A DNA stretch of 64,000 bases from Ensifer adhaerens (GTDB lineage Bacteria; Pseudomonadota; Alphaproteobacteria; Rhizobiales; Rhizobiaceae): assembly GCF_002007205.1 (NCBI RefSeq), contig NZ_LAZS01000012.1, positions 806,001 to 870,000 of the forward strand, read 5' to 3'. This document shows positions 43,749 to 56,576 of this stretch, one piece after another (within the stretch, counting starts at the first letter, position 1; each line of letters starts with the position of its first letter). Below the pieces are notes generated by a model, which was not told the DNA's origin, searched no databases, and was given only the letters and a program-made list of their open reading frames with translations. The position numbers were made by a program, and so were the translations under genes.

Positions 43749-44639
43749 TCACCTGCCCGGCCTCGCCAGCGACCGGGCAATGTCGATGATGTCGTCCCGA
43801 GACGCTGTCGGGTCCTCCTTGTTCCAGGCGACCCCAAGCCCGATCTTCAGATCGACCCCGCGCACGGGCCGAAGTTCGAAACCACGGTTCGGCAAGTCCT
43901 TCGTCCATTCCGGCGCAAAGCCGATGCCGAGGCCGGCGGAAACGAGCGAGACCAGCGAGAAGGTATCGTCACAGCTGTAGGCGATGTTGCCGGTCAGCCC
44001 ATGGGTCTCGAACATCTCGGAGAAGTACCGCTCGGAGTAGGAGAGGTTCTGACGGGAGAAGGCGATGATTTTCTCTCCCGTCAGGTCCTCGATATCGATC
44101 TCGCTTCGAAGGGCGAGCGGGCTGGTCTTTTCGACCGCCAGCAGATAGCGCTCATGCGCGATCGAGAAGAAGCGCAAGGAGCCGATGTTTTCGACCGGGC
44201 GGATGAAACCGAGATTGATCTGGCCGTTTTCCAGTCCCCGGATGATGTCGCTCGTCGAGCCGCTCGTTACGTGCAGCGCCACATCCGGAAACTTCCGGCC
44301 AATACGCGATAGAAACGCCGGCAACACCCCTATCGTCGCAGGATAGACGGTTCCGATCTTGATTGTCCGCGCCGCCCTGCCGGCAACAGACCGCGCCACG
44401 TCCATCGACAACCCGACATCGCCGATAATCCGGACGGCTCGATCGTAGAAAGCCTCTCCTGCCCGCGTCAGCTCGACCCGGCGCGTCGATCGCTCGAGCA
44501 ACCTTACACCTAGCTCCTTCTCCAGTGCCTGGATGTGGGCACTCAACGCCGGCTGGGCAATGCACATCCGAGCAGCCGCTCGGTTGAAATGCAGTTCCTC
44601 GGCCACCGCGACGAAGAACGAGAGTTGGCGAAGTTCCAT
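43749..44639 (-). CDS. LysR family transcriptional regulator (orphan)
   Basis: 296 residues. The N-terminal winged helix is standard (FFVAVAEELHFNRAAARMCIAQPALSAHI, quoted only as a landmark: RAAARMCIAQPALSAHI). The C-terminal substrate-binding-like domain has IKIGTVYPATIGVLPAFL and SAGLGIGFAPEW. LysR proteins of this branch often govern aromatic catabolism or efflux. No divergent or adjacent target gene exists here, since the efflux operon converges on it and a mobile-looking locus lies upstream. Confidence 0.9.
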   Translation of the reverse strand: MELRQLSFFVAVAEELHFNRAAARMCIAQPALSAHIQALEKELGVRLLERSTRRVELTRAGEAFYDRAVRIIGDVGLSMDVARSVAGRAARTIKIGTVYPATIGVLPAFLSRIGRKFPDVALHVTSGSTSDIIRGLENGQINLGFIRPVENIGSLRFFSIAHERYLLAVEKTSPLALRSEIDIEDLTGEKIIAFSRQNLSYSERYFSEMFETHGLTGNIAYSCDDTFSLVSLVSAGLGIGFAPEWTKDLPNRGFELRPVRGVDLKIGLGVAWNKEDPTASRDDIIDIARSLARPGR

Positions 44640-44774
44640 GAATGCTCCGACTCCAGTCCAGTTTCCGCATACGCGCGGAGGGCGAATTCATAACCAGCTG
44701 AACACAACTTTTATCATCTTTCCGTATAGAATAGCCAGTTATTTAATTCGACACGCAATGGTCATGTGAATGCC

Positions 44775-45032
44775 ATGACACCGCGTGATCTACTAGCTTG
44801 GAATGTTAGAAAATTGAGGGTCAAGCGCGGCCTCTCACAAGAACGGCTTGCGCTTGAAGCTCAATTAGAGCGGGTGTCCATTTCTCAGCTTGAGCGGAAG
44901 CAGGTGAATCTCGGAATAGATTCACTCGGAAAAATCGCCGCGGTTCTCGAATGCAAAATCTTCGAGCTGTTGATCGAACCGCAAAACGGCGAAGAAGCGC
45001 CGGTGAATCTTCCTAGAGGTCGGAAAAGATAA
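44775..45032 (+). CDS. Small Xre-family DNA-binding protein
   Basis: 85 residues from ATG 44775 (GTG 44766 is an alternative). Single Xre helix-turn-helix: VRKLRVKRGLSQERLALEAQ and SISQLERKQVNLGIDSLGKI. The upstream gap and the gene are more AT-rich than the neighbourhood, a sign of transfer. It precedes the nuclease-NTPase gene by 205 bases on the same strand; small Xre proteins often repress defence genes placed directly downstream. Confidence 0.87.
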   Translation: MTPRDLLAWNVRKLRVKRGLSQERLALEAQLERVSISQLERKQVNLGIDSLGKIAAVLECKIFELLIEPQNGEEAPVNLPRGRKR

Positions 45033-45237
45033 ATCTTAGCGCTGTCTGCCGGACGGGCTAGAGTACGGCGCATTCATCCAGCCGGACTATCCGAAAAGTT
45101 CGGACATTGCCCGGCGATCATTCCAGACACTCCTTATCGGTGGATGGCATCAATAGAAGTTGCGCGAAAGAAGGACACGCAACTGTCTTGTGATGTACTT
45201 TCCTGCACACGTTTCACGGCACAGCCTAGGCAGAGAA

Positions 45238-48200
45238 ATGCCACACCCGATACTCACGGTCAGTACAAATGAAATCCAGTCCCTCAACGATGAACGCGCC
45301 AGAGAACTCGTGGCACGGCTCGTTCGCGCAGAAGCAAACCGACTTGGTGCAACGAGTCCCGATGTAACATGGGGTGGCGACCAGAGGGCGAAAGACGGTG
45401 GTATCGACGTAAGGTTTTCGGCGGAAGCCCTGGGCGCAACTTCAGTGTTTCTGCCGGCCAGCACCGTCGGCTATCAAGTTAAGGCAGAGAATTTTCCGCC
45501 ATCCAAGATCCAAAAAGAACTTCTACCTAAGGGTAGCCTTAGTGCGTCGATTGCGGAGATCCTTCGCCACGATGGCTCCTACATCATCGTATCAACGCGC
45601 GACAGCGTCTCAGATTCATCCTTGGCGGCTCGGCGGGCGAAGATGGCCGAGTGCTGCGGGCAATTGGAGCCAGGCACGGGAACCCTCGACTTCCTAGATG
45701 CTCGGCGCATCGCAGACTGGGCAGAGCGCTTTCCCTCAATCGTTGCATGGGTAAAGCACAGCTCTGGCGGCCCTTTGAAAGGTTGGAAACCCTACGGGCC
45801 ATGGGCGTATCGTGAAAGCGACTCCAAGGCTGAATACCTGCTCGACGACAGAGTGAAGGTTTTCACGCCCGACGCAAAGGTTGGTTCGGGGGCAATTGAC
45901 GCGATTGATGCCATCCGAAGCGACATGCTCGCGGGACGAAGCGTGCGCGTAGTGGGCCTGTCGGGCGTTGGAAAGACACGTTTGGTTCAAGCACTCTTCG
46001 ATCCAAGAGTGCTTACAAAGTCGCTCCCGTTGCCTCAGGATGGCGTTATCTATGCCGACTTGTCAGATCATTTGGAGCCTCAACCCACGTCCATGGCAGA
46101 GGCGCTAATCGATGCTGATGCTCCTTCCTTCTTCGTTATCGACAACTGCGGCCAGGACCTACACAAGCGGCTGGCCGAAATAGTCGACCGGGGGCCACAA
46201 AAGGTGGCACTGCTTACCGTCGAGTATGACATTCAGGACGACCTTCCAGAGGGTACACGCTGCTATCGCTTGGAGAGCTCTTCAGACGAGCTCATAAAGG
46301 CGTTACTCAGCCGACGTTACAGCCACTTGTCTGAACCTGACATAAGTCGGGTCGCCTCCTTTTCGGACGGGAATGCGCGCGTGGCGTTCGCGCTAGCGAG
46401 CGCGTCGGAACGCAGCGGAGATCTGGCCCAGCTGGGCGATGACGCGCTTTTCAGGCGCTTGTTTCATCAAAAACGAAGCGAGAACGAAGAGCTGTTGCGA
46501 TGCGCCGAGGCCGCCACGCTCTTGTACTCGTTTGAGGGAATTGAGACCGACCAAGGGTCGGAACTCGCACTTTTGGCTCAAACCGTTGGCTTGTCGGTTA
46601 CCACTCTCTACCGCGGCATTGCTGAACTGCAACGAAGGGGATTAGTTCAACAGCGAGGTAAGTGGCGAGCAGTATTACCGCACGCGATCGCCAACAGGCT
46701 CGCCTCTCGCGCTCTCGAAAACAACCCCGCGTCGAGTGTCGTCGACACACTGCTGGTCAAGGCCGACGACAGGGTTGCCAAGTCCTTCTCTAGGAGACTT
46801 GGTTATTTGCATAATTCAACCCACGCACGGCAAATCGTCGCCTCGCTTTTAAACCCGGGTGGGAGTTTTGAGTTTATTGAAGATCTTACGGACGTCGGTA
46901 GACAGGCACTCAAGAATGTAATGCCCACCGACCCAATCGGTAGTTTGTCGGCATTTAAGAGGATGGTTGAGCGCAAGGACGTTAAGGAGTTGGATGCATA
47001 TGTTGCATCCGATCTCGTCGCTATGGCAAGGTCGCTTGCCTACGATGAGTCTATGTTTGACGATGCACTCGACGTCCTCATGGCTTTTGCCGAGAGGGAG
47101 GACACGACAGCCCGCAGTTCCGCGCCTGATGCGATTGCATCACTCTTCACTTGCTATCTCTCTGGTACAAACGCCTCGCCGGAAAAGAGAGCGGCCGTCG
47201 TTCTCGATCTCCTACAAAGCAAGCAGGAGCTGCACCAGGCATTGGGAAGGGCTGCATTGAAGCAAGCCCTCCAGACCAGCCACTTTGTCGGCCACCTGGA
47301 AGCGGACTTTGGCTCTCGCCCGCGTGACTACGGTTGGAAGCCCGAGACCCGGTTAGAGATCGTCCGGTGGTACGGAGGGTTTATTGAAGTTGCGTCACAA
47401 ATAGCACTCGGGACGGAAAAGCAGGCAATCAAAGTTCGCCAGATACTTGGCCAAGCCGTGCGAGACCTCTGTGAGGAGGCCGGGATGCTTGACGCAATTG
47501 AAGCAGTGGGGCGAGCCCTTGCCGAAAAGGGAGGTTGGCCGGACGGATGGGTTGGTGTTCGCGAAACGATCTACTGGAATAGGTCGTCAGCACCTCCCGA
47601 GATTCTATCGAGGCTAATTGCTTTAGAACGTGCCCTTGCACCGAGAGATCTTCTTGGTGAGATACGGGCGTCTATTCTAACGCAGGACGCTGCGTTGTTC
47701 GGTTTGCTCGACGGCGAGGGTTACGGCGCGGACTACGGTACACGTCGCGAGAAGGTTCAGGAGCGAGCAACTGAGCTCGGCAGGATGGCCGCGGAATCCC
47801 TATCCGTGCTTTCCCTGATCACGCCGGATCTACTGCGGACCCGAGGGAGTGAAACCATCTTCTCGTTCGGCGTCGGCGTTGGCTCATCGCTCAAAGACCA
47901 TTCACAGTACCTGGCCGAAGCAAGTCGCATTGTCGCGACTTTGGACGGATCAGACGCAAATTTTCTTTTTGTGCGAGGGCTGTTGGCAGGTTGGCATGGG
48001 ACTGACGCCGCGGCTGCAGACTTATTCTTAGACGCTGCAGTATCAGATCCTGTGTGGGGACAGTCGTTCCCGGAGCTCCAATGCGTTGTTGGTCTAGAGA
48101 ACAGGGGCATCGAGCGCGTCTTCGAAGCGTTAAACGCAAAACTCGCCCCCATTTGGCAGTATCGCTACCTGGCGATGGGCGGGCTGACGGACGCTCTTGA

Positions 48201-49071
48201 TGTGCGAACGATCGGCAAGCTCGTGCAGGCTTTGTCAGGCCTCTCCGGCGGACCTACAGTTGCCATCGATTTGTTGGGAATGGTCATCCATTCAGGCAGG
48301 GTCAAGAACGACGACTTCCGACAGGAAGTCGCACTGCAGATTGGTTACTTTCTGATCGATACAGATCTCACGGAGATCGACACTCAGGACACGATGGTTG
48401 AGTACCACTTCGACCAGATCCTTGCATTCGCGCTCACTCACGCACCTCCTTCAGCCATGGATGAGGATATCATCAACAAGCTGCTATCATGGGAGCGCTC
48501 AGAAGGCAGAAAGTATGCCTTTAGGCGCGGGCGGTTCCTGCAACCCTTCTTCCGGCTCAGGCCAAGGTTGGCCCTCAATGCAGTGTATCAACCCGATGCG
48601 GACGGAAGATTTCGCACAGCTCGTTCACTAGCTTCAAACTATGACAACGAAAGGGGGAGACGTCCGATGGAAGCAGTCCCCACACCCGAAGCAATGGAAT
48701 GGTGTGCGGAATCGCCTACGGACCGGTATCCCTTCATTGCGGAAACTTGCGCCCTGTTTGTTCCAAAGACCTCCGAGGATCAGCCACAAGAGCGTTTGTC
48801 TGAACTTGCGGGAGAGGTATTCAGGCGTGCACCGGACCAAGAGCACATCCTTGAGATATATCTTCAGCGACTAATGCCAATGAGCTGGTCTGGTTTGCGC
48901 GCCGCCAAGCTCCAACGAAGACTTGGTATTCTGGATGACCTGCTTGCCCAAGCACATCCGGATCAAAAGCAAATGCTTTCCGAGGCCCGAGCCCGCATGC
49001 TGCGGGTCGTAGCCGAAATGGGACAACGCGAAGATGAAATAGAGAGCACGAGGAACGAGACCTTCGAGTAA
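45238..49071 (+). CDS. Mrr-like nuclease / P-loop STAND-type NTPase fusion, candidate antiphage sensor (Avs-like)
   Basis: 1277 residues from ATG 45238 (ATG 45193 and TTG 45160 are weaker options). N-terminal domain ~1-160: PD-(D/E)XK nuclease signature with KDGGIDV (Asp57) and YQVKAE (Gln80, Lys82), as in Mrr-type restriction nucleases. NTPase ~220-420: Walker A GLSGVGKTR (Lys246), Walker B FFVIDNC (Asp302). Winged helix ~440-490: GLSVTTLYRGIAELQRRGLV. From ~500 to the end there are only helical, TPR-like segments. This order (effector, NTPase, wHTH, helical sensor) is that of STAND/Avs defence proteins. It sits between an Xre gene and dnaE2. Function is inferred. Confidence 0.75.
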   Translation: MPHPILTVSTNEIQSLNDERARELVARLVRAEANRLGATSPDVTWGGDQRAKDGGIDVRFSAEALGATSVFLPASTVGYQVKAENFPPSKIQKELLPKGSLSASIAEILRHDGSYIIVSTRDSVSDSSLAARRAKMAECCGQLEPGTGTLDFLDARRIADWAERFPSIVAWVKHSSGGPLKGWKPYGPWAYRESDSKAEYLLDDRVKVFTPDAKVGSGAIDAIDAIRSDMLAGRSVRVVGLSGVGKTRLVQALFDPRVLTKSLPLPQDGVIYADLSDHLEPQPTSMAEALIDADAPSFFVIDNCGQDLHKRLAEIVDRGPQKVALLTVEYDIQDDLPEGTRCYRLESSSDELIKALLSRRYSHLSEPDISRVASFSDGNARVAFALASASERSGDLAQLGDDALFRRLFHQKRSENEELLRCAEAATLLYSFEGIETDQGSELALLAQTVGLSVTTLYRGIAELQRRGLVQQRGKWRAVLPHAIANRLASRALENNPASSVVDTLLVKADDRVAKSFSRRLGYLHNSTHARQIVASLLNPGGSFEFIEDLTDVGRQALKNVMPTDPIGSLSAFKRMVERKDVKELDAYVASDLVAMARSLAYDESMFDDALDVLMAFAEREDTTARSSAPDAIASLFTCYLSGTNASPEKRAAVVLDLLQSKQELHQALGRAALKQALQTSHFVGHLEADFGSRPRDYGWKPETRLEIVRWYGGFIEVASQIALGTEKQAIKVRQILGQAVRDLCEEAGMLDAIEAVGRALAEKGGWPDGWVGVRETIYWNRSSAPPEILSRLIALERALAPRDLLGEIRASILTQDAALFGLLDGEGYGADYGTRREKVQERATELGRMAAESLSVLSLITPDLLRTRGSETIFSFGVGVGSSLKDHSQYLAEASRIVATLDGSDANFLFVRGLLAGWHGTDAAAADLFLDAAVSDPVWGQSFPELQCVVGLENRGIERVFEALNAKLAPIWQYRYLAMGGLTDALDVRTIGKLVQALSGLSGGPTVAIDLLGMVIHSGRVKNDDFRQEVALQIGYFLIDTDLTEIDTQDTMVEYHFDQILAFALTHAPPSAMDEDIINKLLSWERSEGRKYAFRRGRFLQPFFRLRPRLALNAVYQPDADGRFRTARSLASNYDNERGRRPMEAVPTPEAMEWCAESPTDRYPFIAETCALFVPKTSEDQPQERLSELAGEVFRRAPDQEHILEIYLQRLMPMSWSGLRAAKLQRRLGILDDLLAQAHPDQKQMLSEARARMLRVVAEMGQREDEIESTRNETFE

Positions 49072-49098
49072 GCCTTCGCAAGTGAACGCTCGCTCGCC

Positions 49099-52000
49099 TC
49101 ACCGAAAATCCCGCGTCTTCACCTTGATCTGGTCGAGATGCAGATAGGGATCGACGATATCTCGCGGACGCGGCCCCTTCGGCAGCCCGCGCGGATCGGG
49201 CGCCGGCACCCCATGATGAAACTCGTCGCCCCGACCGTGCGGAAGCGGGAAACCGGCGTCCCGATCGCCGACGCTGGCGAGCTCGGCTGACAGGTCGGTC
49301 AGCCTATGGGCAACGAGGTGCACAACCTCGCCTTCCTTCTGAATTCGGCCATAGACGCCGAGCATGCCGGCACCCAAGACCACGCGACGAAACGTCTCGA
49401 AGGTCTTCGCCCAGACAACCAGATTGGCAATGCCGGTTTCGTCCTCGATGGTGATGAACATCACGCCCTTGGCCGAACCCGGCCGCTGACGCACGAGCAC
49501 CAGGCCCGCGGCTTCGAGCCATTTTCCATCGCGGGTTTGCATCGCCTCCCGGCAGGAAACGATGCGGAGTTTGATCAGATCCGCGCGCAGGAACGAAAGG
49601 GGATGGTTGCGCAGCGTCAGCCCGACATGGCCGTAGTCCTCGACCACCTCGCCGCCTGATGTCATGGGCGTCAGCGCCACAGAGGGCTCGTCGAGTTCGG
49701 CAACTGTCCGACTTTCACGCTCAGAGGCCGCGGTAAAGAGCGGCAGCGGCTCGTCGCGCAGCGCCTTGATCGCCCAGAGTGCCTCGCGCCGCGCAAGGCT
49801 CAGCGATGGCTGAAACGCATCGGCTTCGGCAAGCTGGACCAAAGAGGCGGCCGGAACGCCCGCCCGGCGCCAGAGATCGTCGACCGTCTCGAAAGCACGT
49901 TCATCGCGCGCAGCAACGATCGCCGCAGCATCGACATTCGCCAGCCCCTTGACCATGCGAAGACCAAGGCGGACGGCAAAGCGGCTTTCATCCCCCGTTG
50001 CCTCGAGCGTGCAATCCCAGCGGCTGGCGTTCACACAGACCGGCCGGACCGCAACACCATGATCGCGTGCGTCCCGCACGATCTGGGCTGGCGCATAGAA
50101 GCCCATCGGCTGGGCATTCAGAAGCGCCGCGCAGAAGACATCCGGATGCCAGCATTTGAGCCAGGCGGAGGCGTAGGCTATCAGCGCGAAGGATGCCGCG
50201 TGGCTTTCGGGGAAACCGTAGCTGCCGAAGCCTTCCAGCTGACGGAACGTCTTTTCCGCAAAGTCCGCCTCGTAACCGTTTGCAACCATGCCATCGATCA
50301 GCTTCTTCCCGAACTTCGAGACCCCTCCGGTGTGCTTGAAGGTCGCCATGGCGCGGCGCAATTGATCGGCCTCGCCCGGCGTGAACCCGGCGCATTCGAT
50401 GGCGACGCGCATTGCCTGTTCCTGGAAGAGCGGCACGCCAAGCGTCTTTCCAAGCACCTGCTCCAGTTCCGGCTTCGGATAGACAACCGCCTCCTTGCCC
50501 TCGCGCCGCCTGAGATAAGGATGGACCATGTCGCCCTGGATCGGGCCGGGGCGCACGATCGCCACTTCGATGACGAGGTCGTAGAAGGTGCGCGGCTTGA
50601 TCCTCGGCAGCATCGACATCTGCGCGCGGCTTTCGATCTGGAACGTGCCGAGCGTGTCTGCCCGCCGGATCATGGCGTAGGTGCGCGGATCTTCGGCCGG
50701 GATGCTCGCAAGATCGAGATTGATGCCCTTGTGTTCGGCCAGCAGATCAAAGCCGCGCTTCATGCACGAGAGCATGCCGAGCGCCAGGCAGTCGACCTTC
50801 ATGAACTTCAGGATATCGATATCGTCCTTGTCCCATTCGATCACCTGCCGGTCGGCCATGGCCGCCGGTTCGATCGGGACGAGCTCGTCGAGGCGATCGT
50901 TCGTCAGGACAAAGCCGCCCGGATGCTGCGACAGGTGGCGAGGTGCCCCCATCAACTGCCGGGCCAGATCGAGCGTCAGGCGCAGGCGCCGATCGGACAG
51001 GTTGAGATTGAGCTCCTCGGCATGTTTTTCGCCAATGTCCTCGCCCCAGCCCCAGACCTGTGACGACAGCATCTTCGTCATGTCCTCGGGCAATCCCAGC
51101 GCCTTGCCGACATCGCGGATGGCGCCTTTCGACCGATAGCGGATGACCGTGGAGCAAAGGGCCGCATGATCACGTCCATAGGTCTCGAAGACCCATTGCA
51201 TGACGATCTCGCGACGCTCGTGCTCAAAGTCGACGTCGATATCCGGCGGCTCGCGCCGCTCCTCGGAAACAAAGCGCTCGAAGAGAAGGTCGTTGATTTC
51301 GGGGTCGATCGAGGTGATGCCGAGCACATAGCAGACCGACGAATTGGCAGCCGACCCCCTGCCCTGACACAGAATGTCTCGTGAGCGGGCAAAACGGACG
51401 ATCGAATTCACCGTCAGGAAGTAGGGCGCATATTGCAGCTTCTCGATCAGCCTCAGCTCGTGCTCGAGGTTCTTTCGAACCTTTGCCGGCAACCCTTCTG
51501 GGTAGCGCCAGGCTGCCCCCTCCCAGGTCAGCTGCGCCAGCGTCTGTTGCGCCGTCAGCTCCGGATGGGAGCGCTCCTCCGGATATTGATAGGCAAGCTC
51601 GTCGAGCGAAAACCGGCACCGCTCCATGATCTCGACGGTGCGGGCAAGCGCTTCGGGGTAACGCGCAAAGAGACGGGCCATTTCTTCAGGCGGCTTCAGG
51701 TAGCGGTCGGCGTGCCGTTCACGCCGGAACCCAGCCTCGTCGATGGTGATGTTGTGGCGAATGCAGGTGACGACATCCTGCAGGATCCGCCGCTCCGGTA
51801 CATGAAACAGGACGTCGTTGGTGACGACCGTCGGCACGCCGATCAAAGCTGCCAGGTTGGAAAGCTGGTGAAGACGCAGCTGGTCGTTCGGCCGGCGGCG
51901 GAGCGTCAGTGCTAGGTAGGCCCGATCGCCAAACGCTTGCTTTAGGTGGCGCTGCTGACGGGCGCAGTCCTCATCAGCGGCATCGGGAAGGAGGATCGCG

Positions 52001-52365
52001 ATCAGTCCCTCGCCGTAGGTGACCAGATCGTCCCAACCGAACCGGCATTTCGCCTTGCCGCCACGCTTCTTGCCAAGCGACAATAACCGGCAAAGCCGCG
52101 CGTAAGCCGGCCGGTCGGTCGGATAGACGAGGACCGAGAGATCGCCTTCAAGATCGAGACGGCAGCCGACGACCAGCCGCACGCCGACATCCTTGGCCGC
52201 CTGATGGGCACGCACGATGCCGGCGAGGCTGTTGCGGTCGACAACCGCCAGCGCCTCAAGCCTAAGCTCCGCGGCACGCTGAAACAGTTCCTCACAGGAG
52301 GAGGCGCCGCGCAGGAAGGAAAAATGCGAAGTGACCTGCAACTCGGCATAGCGCGGCGGCGTCAT
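49099..52365 (-). CDS. dnaE2: Error-prone DNA polymerase III alpha subunit DnaE2 (ImuC)
   Basis: 1088 residues. The ATG at 52365 overlaps the imuB stop (ATGA) and gives the canonical start [20 protein letters not shown]. Domains: PHP (~5-270), polymerase palm with the catalytic acidic motif [12 protein letters not shown], finger and thumb, and an OB domain near the C-terminus ([18 protein letters not shown]). It carries out mutagenic lesion bypass in the SOS response with ImuA and ImuB. Length and motifs are complete. Confidence 0.96.
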
Positions 52366-53885
52366 CCGAAGATCCCGTGCAGGAACCATTGGTGACTGCC
52401 GGTCTCGCTGTGTTCGCCGTCGCCCGCACGGAAGATCCAGTAGCGCTCACCAGCGTCGTCTTCGACCTGGAAATAGTCGCGCACGGCTACGAGCTCGGCG
52501 TGGCGCTTCCACCACTCTCCAAAAACCCGTTCGGGTCCATCGGCCCGTTTCACCCGCCGGCGCACCCCGCGCCAGGTGAAACTGACCGGCGGATGATCGG
52601 GCAGAAGCGCCATCGTCTCGATCGGTTCGGGATGGAGAAGCAAGCGCACCGGTCGTGGCCAATGGCCGGGCCATGACTGACCTTCATCCGCCGCCATCGG
52701 CGCGATGCGAATTACCGAGCGCTCGGGCACATCACTCGCAACCGGTGCCAAGCGGAAAAGCCGCCGCGCGCCAATGCGATTTCCGAGGATGTCGATCAGG
52801 CCGGAAACATCGGCCTCCGGCTCATCGACCAGCGAGGAAATGATCTGGCTTGCGACAAGCGGCTCGGCATGGGTTGCCGTCAGCGACATGATCTCGATCC
52901 CGAAGCCCGGATCAATCGTCTCTATCCGATCGGTGATGAGCCGGGTCAGGCGCCTGGCGTCGCGAACAGGGGTCGCAGTGCCGGCCCGAATCGCCTGGTA
53001 GGTGTTGTCGACGCGATGGAAGAGAAGATCGACGCGCCGCGCACCAAGGCCCCTTTCTTCCAAAACCCGACAGAGCATGAGCACCAGCTCGGCGGCATAG
53101 CGCGCAATCGTCTCGGCCGCCGCGATCGGTTCACCAAAGGAGCGGCGAACCCCAACGAGATCGGGCGTGCGCACAGGATCGATCGGCTCGGCGACCTTTC
53201 CCATGGCCTGGTCGATGCGACGGCCAAGCTCGGGTCCAAATCTGAGAGCAAGCGGTGCCCGCGGCACGCCGACGACTTCGCCGATCGTATTGAAGCCTAG
53301 CACGCGAAGGCCATGGACGATTGCGGGATCGAGACGGAGGGCGGCGATCGGCAGTTTGCGGATCGTATCCTGCTGCCCGCTCGGCGCGGTGACGTGCGTC
53401 GGTCGCGCAAGAAACCGGGCGGCGGCATGGGCCGCCCCCCAGGTATCGGCGACCGCCGCACGGGCCTCGATGCCGGATCCGAAGAACCGGTTGACCATGC
53501 CCGACAACATCAAGTCTTCGCCGCCGTGCAAGTGGTCGGCACCCGTCGTGTCGATGACAAGGCCATCGGGTGGATCGGTGGAAACGATCGGCGCGTAGCG
53601 CTGCAGGGCCCAGAGCGCCAGGCGTTCGAGCGCTTCTTGATCGGCGGCCGAATCGGCGTCCATGACGACAAGACCTGTGACGAGCGCCTGGGCCTTCGTG
53701 GCGGCCATGCCGGGTCTCAGGCCTGCGGCAATCGCCGCGGCATTTACCGAGAGCACCACACGCCTTTGCTTTTCGCGGCCCACAAGGACGAGAGGCGTTT
53801 CAGCCGGCGGCGCTGCGTCGCCGAGTTTGCGCCTCAGGCGATCCGTGGACCAGCTCGGAAGGAAGAGCGATACGACCCTTGGCAT
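52362..53885 (-). CDS. imuB: ImuB, inactive Y-family polymerase-like protein
   Basis: 507 residues from ATG 53885, inside the end of imuA, so translation is coupled. It has the Y-family fold but at the place of the catalytic DMDAFYASVE motif reads [12 protein letters not shown], without the acidic residue, as expected for ImuB. Middle region [20 protein letters not shown] is the helix-hairpin-helix part; the C-terminus is the ImuB tail ([19 protein letters not shown]). It acts as the hub that links DnaE2, the sliding clamp and ImuA. Confidence 0.94.
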
Positions 53886-54561
53886 CTGGGGCCTCCACTT
53901 CGAAATCTGCACTTTCGCCAGCGCGGCAGCGGATGAGTTCGACGAGCCAACGCGCGCGGCCGACGCCTGGAACCGGCAAGGGGGCGGATGGAAGGACGGA
54001 AACCCGCCAGCGCGTGACCGATGCCGTCGGCTGCCCGAAATCCGAGGCTTCGGCCTGGCGTCGCCAACGGCGGATCGCAAGGCCTATGGTTCCGGAACGC
54101 TCGGCCGCAAGCTGCAATCGGCGTGAGGCGGCCATCGGAAGGCGCGCGAGTTCGCCGACGACGGCACCGAGACCACCGTGTCGAAGCCCCTCCTCCATGC
54201 AGGATAGAAGCGCTTTTTCGTCGCCGGCCTCCACATAGATGACGCGGCTCGGCGAAAGACCTACTTGAGCCAGCGCCGGAGCGAAGAGATCCGGTCGTGT
54301 CACGCACCAGAGCACCTTGCCCTTGGTACGGGCGGCAATGCCCGCCGAGAACAACGCCGCCGCCGCGCCGTCGATCGCACCGTTGCCGCCGCCGGCGACC
54401 TCATGCAACGAGCCGAGTGCGAGCCCCTCACCCGGCAGTCGCCGATCGATCTCGGCAACGCCAAACGGCAGGACCTTCCGCCCGCGTCCGCTCGTACCTT
54501 CGAGGCGCTGGATGCGCTCGCGAAGTTCTGAGACGACGGTATTGTCGACTGGACGGGGCAT
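53800..54561 (-). CDS. imuA: ImuA, SOS mutagenesis RecA-like protein
   Basis: 253 residues. RecA/SulA-like fold: LPFGVAEIDRRLPGEGLALGSLHE matches the family start, followed by KGKVLWCVTRPDLFAPAL and ALLSCMEEGLRHGGLGAVV. It is the first gene of the imuA-imuB-dnaE2 operon and overlaps imuB by 86 bases. A LexA box lies 51 bases upstream. Together the three form the ImuABC mutasome. Confidence 0.94.
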   Translation of the reverse strand: MPRPVDNTVVSELRERIQRLEGTSGRGRKVLPFGVAEIDRRLPGEGLALGSLHEVAGGGNGAIDGAAAALFSAGIAARTKGKVLWCVTRPDLFAPALAQVGLSPSRVIYVEAGDEKALLSCMEEGLRHGGLGAVVGELARLPMAASRRLQLAAERSGTIGLAIRRWRRQAEASDFGQPTASVTRWRVSVLPSAPLPVPGVGRARWLVELIRCRAGESADFEVEAPDAKGRIALPSELVHGSPEAQTRRRSAAG

Positions 54562-54612
54562 TTTGGAAGGAACAACTCCTCAGGGCTATGCATTAGCGCT
54601 TCCTGTTGATAT

Positions 54613-54627
54613 GTTCTCTATTTGTTC
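54613..54627. promoter_or_regulatory. LexA (SOS) box
   Basis: GTTC-TCTATTT-GTTC, an exact match to the alphaproteobacterial LexA site GTTC-N7-GTTC, in the gap between imuA (minus) and the SRAP gene (plus). It very likely controls imuA-imuB-dnaE2 and may also serve the divergent SRAP-dinB side. Confidence 0.85.
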
Positions 54628-54794
54628 CTATTTGGGTTGCGAGTCAACGAAGTTCAGAAAAGAGACTGTTGATTGCGATAGAGACATCAGCGCGGACACG
54701 CCGCTTGGTGCAATGAATGGATCGGGCGCCGAGGAACGGCGACAGACCTAAGCAGTCGCTGATATGAAGCAAGGTGAGAAAGGGAGACTGAACT

Positions 54795-55466
54795 TTGTGC
54801 AATCTCTACAACATCACGACGACACGCGATGCCGTGATTGCATTCACCAAGGCATTCCGCGACAAGGCCGGCTGGAACCAGCCATCCTATGACGTCTACC
54901 CCGGCTATCAGGCGCCCGTAGTCCGCGTCGGCGAAGACGGAGAGCGAGAGATCGCGCGCGTCACCTGGGGCATGCCCTCGCCGCCGGCTTTCGTGAAGAA
55001 CTACGATTCAGGCGTCACCAACATTCGAAACGTCGCCTCAGCGCACTGGAGACGCTGGCTTGGGCCGACCAGTCGCTGCGTCGTCCCCTTCACCTCCTTC
55101 GCCGAGCCGGACCCGGCAAGCCAAGTTCCCGGCGGCAAGATCCCCAATGCCTGGTTTGCCGGGACCAAGGAGCGGCCGCTGATGTTCTTCGCCGGCTTCT
55201 GGACGCCATGGAAGGGTGTCCGGCGCGTGCGCGACGGCGAGCGCGAATACGAGCTCTTCGGCTTCCTCACTACATCACCGAACGAGATCGTCTCGCCCGT
55301 CCATCAAAAGGCCATGCCGGTGATCCTGACCACACCTGACGAGGTCGATCTGTGGCTCACCGGATCCTGGGACGACGTGAAGCACCTGCAGCGGCCGCTT
55401 CCGGGCAACATGCTTGTTGTCGTCGAGCCTCCTGCCGCCCTGCCCGAAGAAGACCTGCTGCTATGA
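54795..55466 (+). CDS. SRAP (HMCES/YedK-like) family protein
   Basis: 223 residues from TTG 54795, the start that leaves Cys2 (MCN) as the abasic-site crosslinking residue; GAAAGGGAG lies upstream. Other SRAP residues: VTWGMP, NIRNVAS (the NARSE position), RCVVPFTSFAEP with catalytic Glu, and VHQKAMPVIL with the catalytic His. It is placed beside SOS polymerase genes, fitting a role in protecting abasic sites during damage tolerance. Confidence 0.92.
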   Translation: MCNLYNITTTRDAVIAFTKAFRDKAGWNQPSYDVYPGYQAPVVRVGEDGEREIARVTWGMPSPPAFVKNYDSGVTNIRNVASAHWRRWLGPTSRCVVPFTSFAEPDPASQVPGGKIPNAWFAGTKERPLMFFAGFWTPWKGVRRVRDGEREYELFGFLTTSPNEIVSPVHQKAMPVILTTPDEVDLWLTGSWDDVKHLQRPLPGNMLVVVEPPAALPEEDLLL

Positions 55467-55492
55467 CCAGTCGTTGGGTCGCGTGATCGGTG

Positions 55493-56576
55493 ATGGAAAC
55501 GCTCTGAGCGCACGCGAAAGATCATCCATGTCGACATGGATGCCTTCTACGCCTCGGTGGAGCAGCGGGACAACCCCGCACTTCGCGGGCTTCCGATTGC
55601 CGTTGGCTTCGGCGAGGCGCGCGGCGTCGTGGCTGCCGCAAGCTACGAGGCGCGCAAATACGGCGTCCATTCGGCCATGCCGTCGGTCACCGCCAAGCGG
55701 AAATGCCCGGAGCTGATTTTTGTGACGCCGCGCTTCGATGCTTACCGCGCAGTCTCACAGCAGATCCACGCGATCTTTGCCGAATACACGCCGCTCATCG
55801 AACCGCTCTCGCTCGACGAGGCCTATCTTGATGTCACCGAGAACCTCAAGGGAATGGAACTTGCGACGGAGATCGCCGAGGAGATCCGCGCCAAGATCAA
55901 GGCAAGGACAGGCCTGACCGCTTCGGCCGGCGTCTCCTATAACAAGTTCCTCGCCAAGATGGCGTCCGACCAGAGGAAACCGGATGGCCTCTTCGTCATC
56001 ACGCCAAAGAACGGTCCGGCCTTCGTCGAGGCGCTGCCCGTCAAGAAATTCCATGGCGTCGGCCCGGCGACGGCCGAGCGCATGCACAAGCTCGGCATTG
56101 AAACGGGCGCCGATCTGAAGGCTCACGATATCGCCTTCTTGCAGCAACACTTCGGAAAATCGGGACCTTACTTCTACTGGATCGCCCGCGGCGTCGACGA
56201 ACGTCAAGTGAAGGCCGACCGGGTGCGCAAGTCCATCGGCGCGGAAGACACGTTCTCCGTAGACGTCCATGATTTCGAGACCGCCAGGGCTGGCCTCGAA
56301 CCGCTGATCGAAAAGGTCTGGCGCTACTGCGAAGCGAACGATATTCGCGCCAAGACCGCGACGCTCAAGGTGAAATGGGCGGATTTCACGCAGATCACTA
56401 GGAGCAAGACAACAGCGGTACCGATCGCAAGTGCCGCAGAGCTTGCCGCGGTCATAACGATGCTGTTATCTCCACTCTTCCCTGCCCCAAAAGGCATTCG
56501 GTTGCTGGGCGTGACACTGTCGTCACTCGATGAAACGACGATCGAAAGCAAGCCACAGCTTGCCTTCGCGCTCTAA
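55493..56576 (+). CDS. dinB: DNA polymerase IV (DinB), apparent frameshift at the start
   Basis: From ATG 55536 the frame gives 346 residues, but this start cuts off the catalytic Asp of HVDMDAFYASVE. The codons for RKIIHVD are present just upstream (55515-55535) with no in-frame start codon before a TGA. Removing one base near 55505 would join ATG 55493 (METLERTRKIIHVDMD). The rest is complete: PLSLDEAYLDVTE (catalytic Asp-Glu), FHGVGPATAERMHKLGI, and the little-finger domain. Either a sequencing error or an inactivating one-base insertion. The protein would perform Y-family translesion synthesis. Confidence 0.85.

Follow-up and report, generated by a model that had tools for sequence, protein, structure and literature searches.

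Closest Described Systems

The PD-Lambda-4 family is credited to a selection for phage resistance in E. coli by Vassallo et al. in 2022, a report which describes 21 candidate systems, each of which lowered the plating of its own selecting phage (PMC9519451). In the literature that uses this name, the passages returned by a full-text search state no mechanism. A similar layout of domains is found in Avs1-4, which another paper presents as proteins made of a nuclease effector, an NTPase and a C-terminal sensor (PMC12931631).

The gene discussed here encodes a protein of 1277 aa (45238-49071, + strand) and lies in a 64-kb window, that is, the whole stretch of DNA that was analysed. Judged from its sequence, the product is a PD-Lambda-4 A protein, and thus the earlier note's description of the locus as an undescribed system does not hold. 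The preferred reading, to which we assign a probability of roughly 0.7, is a stand-alone anti-phage protein of this family, most likely consisting of a STAND switch, a nuclease and a solenoid sensor. This reading is built on computed evidence, namely family membership, conservation of the motifs, predicted folds, the lack of a constant partner in the compared loci, and recent exchange of the gene.

Family Assignment and the Second Gene

The PADLOC model PDLC03991 (PD-Lambda-4_A) matches residues 5-1277 of the large protein over positions 3-1283 of its 1283 (E = 3.3e-238, 791.6 bits), and an E. coli protein that adjoins gene B reaches 2517.8 bits with the same model. The likeness extends across the whole of protein A and includes the same invariant motifs, with 27-28% identity to two E. 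coli PD-Lambda-4 A proteins (alignment A1). The role in defence put forward earlier is supported by this homology to a family credited to a selection for phage resistance (PMC9519451). Searching by sequence gave no convincing homologue of solved structure. A link to MADS was also considered and rejected, as one of the 22 family members matched mad8 at 1.9e-4 and none of seven distant proteins did so when scanned singly.

The E. coli family members have a second gene, B, which is missing here, so that A alone might not suffice. The PD-Lambda-4 system definition of PADLOC requires both genes; because, unlike in E. coli, B (PDLC03992) has no match in the genome that carries the large gene, the locus is filed as an A-only homologue and not as a complete two-gene system. 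It could then be argued that PD-Lambda-4 needs B, and that a copy without it is an incomplete or decaying system. B does adjoin A in two E. coli loci (L041 and L043), and among 5426 E. coli genomes B-like DNA occurs in 156 and A-like DNA in 173, each set being counted on its own whatever their overlap, so in most E. coli the two may go together; in addition, the copy of A in Ensifer E-60 carries a frameshift. However, this explanation is unlikely when the wider distribution is considered: A is matched in 24 of 397 genomes of the order and B in none of them, B lies near A in just 3 of 43 loci, and E. coli STEC434 has an open A of 1283 codons with no B beside it. Moreover, B is often split, as it spans at least two annotated features in 36 of the 40 E. 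coli rows among the matches listed, whereas the A copy studied here is open and shows few amino-acid changes.

Pfam and NCBIfam scans assigned B to no protein family. Apart from B, no constant partner emerged from the 43 loci, a set that includes the present locus and some near-duplicates and has flanks of unequal length. Gene groups shared by 3-5 of these loci encode IS3-type transposases, integrases or recombinases, or else stand at no fixed distance from A. The exception is a set of genes common to three E. coli-like loci.

Domain Architecture

The layout was examined by aligning the large protein with 21 others, 17-36% identical to it, and by AlphaFold2 modelling as two separate halves with 19 sequences per half. 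Some rows of alignment A1 begin a few codons 5' of the true start, which leaves the counted columns unaffected, and the homologues back the ATG taken as the start of the large gene. The models (mean pLDDT of 84.3 for residues 1-510 and 84.8 for residues 490-1277) consist of an alpha/beta head resembling a nuclease, followed by a P-loop ATPase, a winged helix and an extended alpha-solenoid, in agreement with the order of domains proposed in the earlier note. The motif residues that it had singled out (D57, Q80-x-K82, K246 and D302) are found at their positions and, together with D53 and with E94 in the nuclease region, are the same in all 22 aligned homologues; at identities this low, such conservation is not due to chance.

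Residues 1-180 (45238-45777, + strand) are predicted to form a PD-(D/E)XK-type nuclease. The core of this fold has the order alpha-beta-beta-beta-alpha-beta, with an aspartate before strand 2 and a Q/E-x-K motif in strand 3. The model gives helix 18-35, strands 42-45, 58-61 and 76-82, helix 103-110 and strand 114-119, with D57 just ahead of strand 58-61 and both Q80 and K82 within strand 76-82; judged on order alone, this fits the core. The N-terminus therefore agrees with a nuclease in its order of helices and strands, and not at the level of Pfam, where the large protein matches no nuclease family at E up to 1 and none occurs among the 18 families tallied for the 22 members. One of these 22 matches SbcD_C at 0.008.

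The P-loop NTPase and its helical lid occupy residues 205-400 (45850-46437, + strand), as indicated by the alignment, the model and a sub-threshold match to Pfam AAA_16. Walker A is G240-T247 (GLSGVGKT, with K246) and Walker B has D302 in VIDNC; the pattern GxSGxGK[TS] and D302 are kept in all 22 homologues. STAND NTPases are characterised by Walker A and B motifs, a G-x-P in the helical lid, a winged helix, C-terminal superstructure repeats and ligand-triggered oligomerisation. In the lid, G378 is invariant, and the G-x-P itself occurs in 6 of the 22 homologues, while the other 16, the large protein included, read G-N-A/S at this site. The following region (residues 401-495; 46438-46722, + strand) is modelled as helices 401-410, 417-426, 442-449 and 454-466 and strands 470-473 and 476-479, of which the part spanning 442-479 is a winged helix placed after the NTPase, with weak Pfam HTH matches within 433-475. 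Like bacterial, plant and animal NLR/STAND proteins (6mfv, 9jap, NRC2-4, RPP1 and NOD2), the large protein combines a P-loop NTPase with a winged helix and a repeat arm, and it differs in reading G-N-A/S at the G-x-P position.

When residues 1-510 were compared with the PDB by Foldseek, the best match was Avs3 with phage terminase (8dgc, E = 8.3e-9) and the second a STAND-TPR protein, and EfAvs5, plant NLRs and NOD2 were also among the matches. These matches are scores for the 510 residues as a block and do not by themselves demonstrate a match of the nuclease head, and the TM-scores are low, about 0.3, in part because the orientations of the domains differ. The resemblance to Avs proteins is thereby supported for the fold, as well as for the layout described for Avs1-4, and it is not matched by sequence models: the PADLOC library includes AVAST models, and none of them hit the large protein at E up to 1. 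Accordingly, the fold matches to Avs3 and STAND proteins and the full-length match to PD-Lambda-4 A back a STAND-type protein, and not a new system.

Residues 490-1277 are modelled as an alpha-solenoid with HEAT-type Foldseek matches, the form that the C-terminal superstructure repeats take here, and residues 500-1277 (46735-49068, + strand) are proposed to be the sensor. Compared with 15 closer homologues, the N-terminal domains average 36-50% identity, whereas the solenoid averages 25% and its last third 20%; this fastest divergence is what a sensor would be expected to show. A second alternative is direct reading of DNA by a restriction-like nuclease-ATPase, whose solenoid would hold DNA with no sensing of a phage protein. 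In favour of this, clamp loaders (from rank 3 on), ORC and RuvB follow the STAND matches with close E-values, and HEAT-type solenoids are also present in DNA-handling proteins, among them FANCI/FANCD2 and CAP-G. We regard it as quite unlikely, since the two best matches are Avs3 and a STAND protein and the solenoid is the quickest-diverging part, unlike a general DNA-binding surface.

Genomic Setting and Exchange

The large gene is flanked on the left by a LysR regulator gene (43749-44639, - strand) and on the right by dnaE2, which encodes an error-prone DNA polymerase (49099-52389, - strand) and belongs to a dnaE2-imuB-imuA cluster. Between LysR and the large gene is that of an 85-aa Xre-family regulator (44775-45032, + strand); this ORF and the large one are open where the earlier note had placed them. 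The flanks were also as that note had them, except that the LysR gene, far from being an orphan, forms a divergent pair with the Xre gene. As claimed, the large gene is poorer in GC (0.560, compared with 0.614 for LysR and 0.631 for dnaE2), also at third codon positions (0.595, compared with 0.778 and 0.763).

The Xre gene is part of this LysR-Xre pair and for this reason is not the companion of the defence gene that it had been taken for. That Xre acts as the repressor in a two-gene system with the large gene is very improbable, even though the two genes stand on the same strand 205 bp apart and both occur in Ensifer E-60 too, because Xre was found at 2 of 29 A loci, the present one counted, and at none of 20 A loci from IMG/VR, and the 14 Rhizobium plasmid records that keep the LysR-Xre pair do not overlap with the 39 A-bearing records. 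No other Xre-type gene was found in 10 upstream ORFs scanned at A loci; the same ORFs include one resolvase and one DUF2971 protein.

The large gene looks recently exchanged, as its sequence is 99.1% identical to the E-60 copy, whereas identity is 88-89% for LysR and dnaE2 and 95% for xre. The two copies differ by 24 synonymous and 12 non-synonymous codons, a pattern as under selection for function. The gene is at this place in none of 15 other genomes of the genus, so it is not a fixture of the Rhizobiaceae here, and this, with the E-60 identity and the count of 24 in 397 order genomes, agrees with the horizontal mobility proposed earlier. A mobile element with short terminal repeats was considered and rejected: no direct or inverted repeat of at least 8 bases is shared between 44996-45260 and 49031-49150, and the 64-kb window contains no tRNA gene.

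Proposed Mechanism and Significance

We infer nuclease activity, ligand sensing, multimerisation and cell death for the large protein, which would most likely operate as a STAND switch in the following way. The C-terminal alpha-solenoid would keep the protein off until it binds a phage product, upon which the P-loop ATPase and winged helix would exchange nucleotide and multimerise. Once gathered in this way, the N-terminal Mrr/PD-(D/E)XK-like nuclease heads would cut DNA and halt the infection, probably with the loss of the cell.

For the family as a whole, it may be suggested tentatively, at somewhat less than even odds, that PD-Lambda-4 A acts on its own as a STAND immune receptor made of one protein, forming a further class beside Avs1-5 and recognising a phage product through its HEAT-like solenoid, with B an accessory of E. 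coli-like loci and not part of the core. The combination of a conserved nuclease-switch head with a fast-diverging solenoid makes this a testable proposal, in which PD-Lambda-4 A would be a STAND receptor and B dispensable. For Ensifer, the locus would represent a defence gene exchanged between lineages as a short block, at one place beside dnaE2.

Family Assignment

The large ORF (45238-49071, + strand) encodes a protein of 1277 aa and lies downstream of a small Xre ORF (44775-45032, + strand). Both were confirmed as the earlier note had described them, as was the AT-richness of the large gene, which has GC 0.560 and GC3 0.595 compared with 0.61-0.63 and 0.76-0.78 for the neighboring LysR gene (43749-44639, - strand) and dnaE2 (49099-52389, - strand). 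An alternative, longer start exists at a TTG at 45160; the alignment with homologues begins at the ATG at 45238.

The PADLOC model PD-Lambda-4_A (PDLC03991) spans residues 5-1277 of the large protein (E 3.3e-238), in a scan that covered the Xre and large genes of the window only. The remaining matches listed for the protein were two shorter PD-Lambda-4_A models and, on the winged-helix stretch, weak matches of CARF3 and CasR. All 22 members of our alignment matched the A model, and in E. coli a gene scoring 2517.8 bits with it directly precedes one scoring 653.2 bits with the model of the second gene of the system, PD-Lambda-4_B (PDLC03992; hereafter B). Given the full-length match, the system, proposed earlier as likely undescribed, is a known one: the window gene (hereafter A, with its homologues) joins the PD-Lambda-4 family, which has already been published together with its role against phages. 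In the accessible part of a review, a table places PD-lambda-4 under P-loop NTPase and credits it to Vassallo et al. 2022 (PMC10952713). The accessible part of that work describes an E. coli fosmid selection that yielded 21 systems, with each of which the selecting phage plated less (PMC9519451); the name PD-lambda-4 was not found in this part of the body text. A full-text literature search by name returned two papers that use it, the second of which gives it just as a list entry, and no mechanism for PD-Lambda-4.

Predicted Architecture

The AlphaFold2 model of residues 1-510, built with 19 sequences, has a mean pLDDT of 84.3 and a pTM of 0.77. The PD-(D/E)XK nuclease fold places D before one strand and Q-x-K at the end of the next. 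In residues 18-119 of the model, the order of helices and strands sets D57 just ahead of one strand, and Q80-x-K82 closes the next. This nuclease-like head is followed by a P-loop NTPase and then by a winged helix. In the 22-sequence alignment, whose other 21 members are 17-36% identical to the window protein, the invariant columns are D53, D57, Q80, K82, E94, G240, S242, G243, G245, K246, D302, and C304; because these residues are invariant at such identities, the catalytic and P-loop assignments made earlier hold. A distant PD-Lambda-4_A-like subfamily (loci L049-L053 and L056), 17-21% identical, keeps a STAND-like G-x-P, which in the main clade is G-N-A/S.

When residues 1-510 were compared with the PDB by Foldseek, the first match was Avs3 with phage terminase bound (8dgc_A, E 8.3e-9), the second a STAND-TPR protein (E 4.5e-7), the third an E. 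coli clamp loader (E 5.5e-7), and the fifth EfAvs5 (E 1.5e-6). Further matches included tomato NRC proteins, NOD2, and RPP1, interspersed with clamp loaders, ORC, and RuvB. Against a library of modeled viral proteins, the top match carries an NLR-related label, and many of the rest are AAA ATPases, of the clamp-loader or another kind. Since the TM-scores are low and aligned ranges are not given, these matches show kinship of layout, not a detailed match domain by domain. Avs proteins consist of an N-terminal effector, a central NTPase, and a C-terminal sensor, with nuclease effectors in Avs1-4, according to the accessible part of PMC12931631.

The model of residues 490-1277 (mean pLDDT 84.8) is nearly all helix, and its best matches are HEAT-type importins, transportins, and SF3b. 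Compared with 15 closer homologues, the window protein has a mean identity of 35.8% for the nuclease, 42.0% for the NTPase with its lid, and 50.2% for the winged helix; the value drops to 25.4% for the solenoid (residues 500-1277, the proposed sensor) and to 19.6% for the final third of the solenoid. A recognition role would predict such a pattern, in which the effector and switch are conserved and the arm varies.

Neighboring Genes

The Xre gene had been regarded as the companion of the large gene. A phmmer search of locus ORFs, with flanks of unequal length, found the Xre protein at 2 of 29 A loci (the window and Ensifer adhaerens E-60), and none of the 20 IMG/VR A loci gave a match. Xre matches (E ≤1e-12) occur in 15 of 151 family genomes, exceeding 50% identity in one besides the window genome. 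Near close Xre relatives, a divergent LysR gene lies 94-102 bp away in three of the four regions opened, the fourth having a LysR-like stretch of 53 residues at that place. A LysR-Xre DNA query matched 298 of 72,556 plasmid records, 15 with at least 80% covered at one place: E-60 and 14 Rhizobium records, none of whose accessions is among the 39 A-bearing plasmid records. On these counts Xre is rejected as the partner of A. LysR and Xre together make up a regulatory module of rhizobia, next to which the large gene sits as cargo. Divergent LysR/HTH pairs are repeated across rhizobial plasmids (L103:2280-5261; window 43749-45032), and R. leguminosarum WSM1325 has two of them, adjacent.

No B match was found in the window's genome or in the 397 genomes of the order, 24 of which match A (E ≤0.001; some are short pieces). 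B is present at 3 of 43 A loci (L041 and L043 of E. coli, and L129), which also have their next downstream genes in common; outside these three, no non-mobile gene family holds a constant position. By annotation or PADLOC match, A loci have ABC-three-component genes nearby (L007, L014), a SIR2 gene (L008), a PD-T4-5 relative (L014), or a helicase with DUF2290 (L043).

Among 5426 E. coli genomes, 173 contain A-like DNA, which at no single place reaches 80% of the Enterobacter query; B-like DNA occurs in 156, of which 152 cover 80%. With the two counted separately, most E. coli A genes may have B alongside. In E. coli STEC434 no B was seen among the neighbors of the A gene, and an E. coli control genome gave a match to the B model and none to the A model, so that genes like B exist without A as well. 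Among the 40 listed of the 156 matches, B lies beneath at least two annotated features in 36 and is therefore often split or shortened; the L041 ORF (L041:11898-12810) has 248 aa versus 303.

Distribution and Recent Exchange

The large gene does not sit at this place in all Rhizobiaceae, a possibility the earlier note had raised: A is absent from all 15 other genomes of the genus. Homologues occur in 39 of 72,556 plasmid records and at 20 IMG/VR loci, and in none of 50,697 phage records. At 11 other dnaE2 loci (some duplicates), LysR lies near dnaE2 in two, a third has a single LysR-like piece of 92 bases, and A is found in none. Viewed by eye, one compared locus (G010) has 720 bp between the LysR and dnaE2 homologies, with a small, different HTH-like ORF between them, and in E. 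adhaerens M8 two features come after LysR: a second, partial dnaE2 (L089:8440-9603, near dnaE2, in the same variable place) and an ORF containing a stretch that resembles a P-loop. In named Ensifer strains the regions that match are on large plasmids, and the window's contig is presumably one as well.

Plasmid p-2 of E. adhaerens E-60 has the gene order of the window, LysR-Xre-A-dnaE2. DNA identity between the two is 99.1% in A, 95.0% in xre, 92.6% in the xre-A gap, 88.6% in dnaE2, and 88.3% in LysR; it climbs again to 95-98% at 54500-56000, so that A is not the sole highly similar stretch. Identity changes abruptly toward dnaE2, with no difference between 48896 and 49132, and gradually toward xre. 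This pattern, with the flanks lower than A, points to a recent exchange of the A block, probably by recombination in the shared flanks. The E-60 copy, the nearest one, has a frameshift near codon 185, which is either decay or a sequencing error. Copies of A also look interrupted, by frame changes or an internal stop, in two IMG/VR contigs (L122, L131) and two plasmids (L009, L010).

With the computed family, motifs, and predicted folds, and with no constant partner at the compared loci, the large protein is best read as a PD-Lambda-4 family receptor of the STAND type that acts autonomously, through a predicted nuclease. Such a receptor would sense a phage product, oligomerize, and cleave DNA, and cell death would follow.
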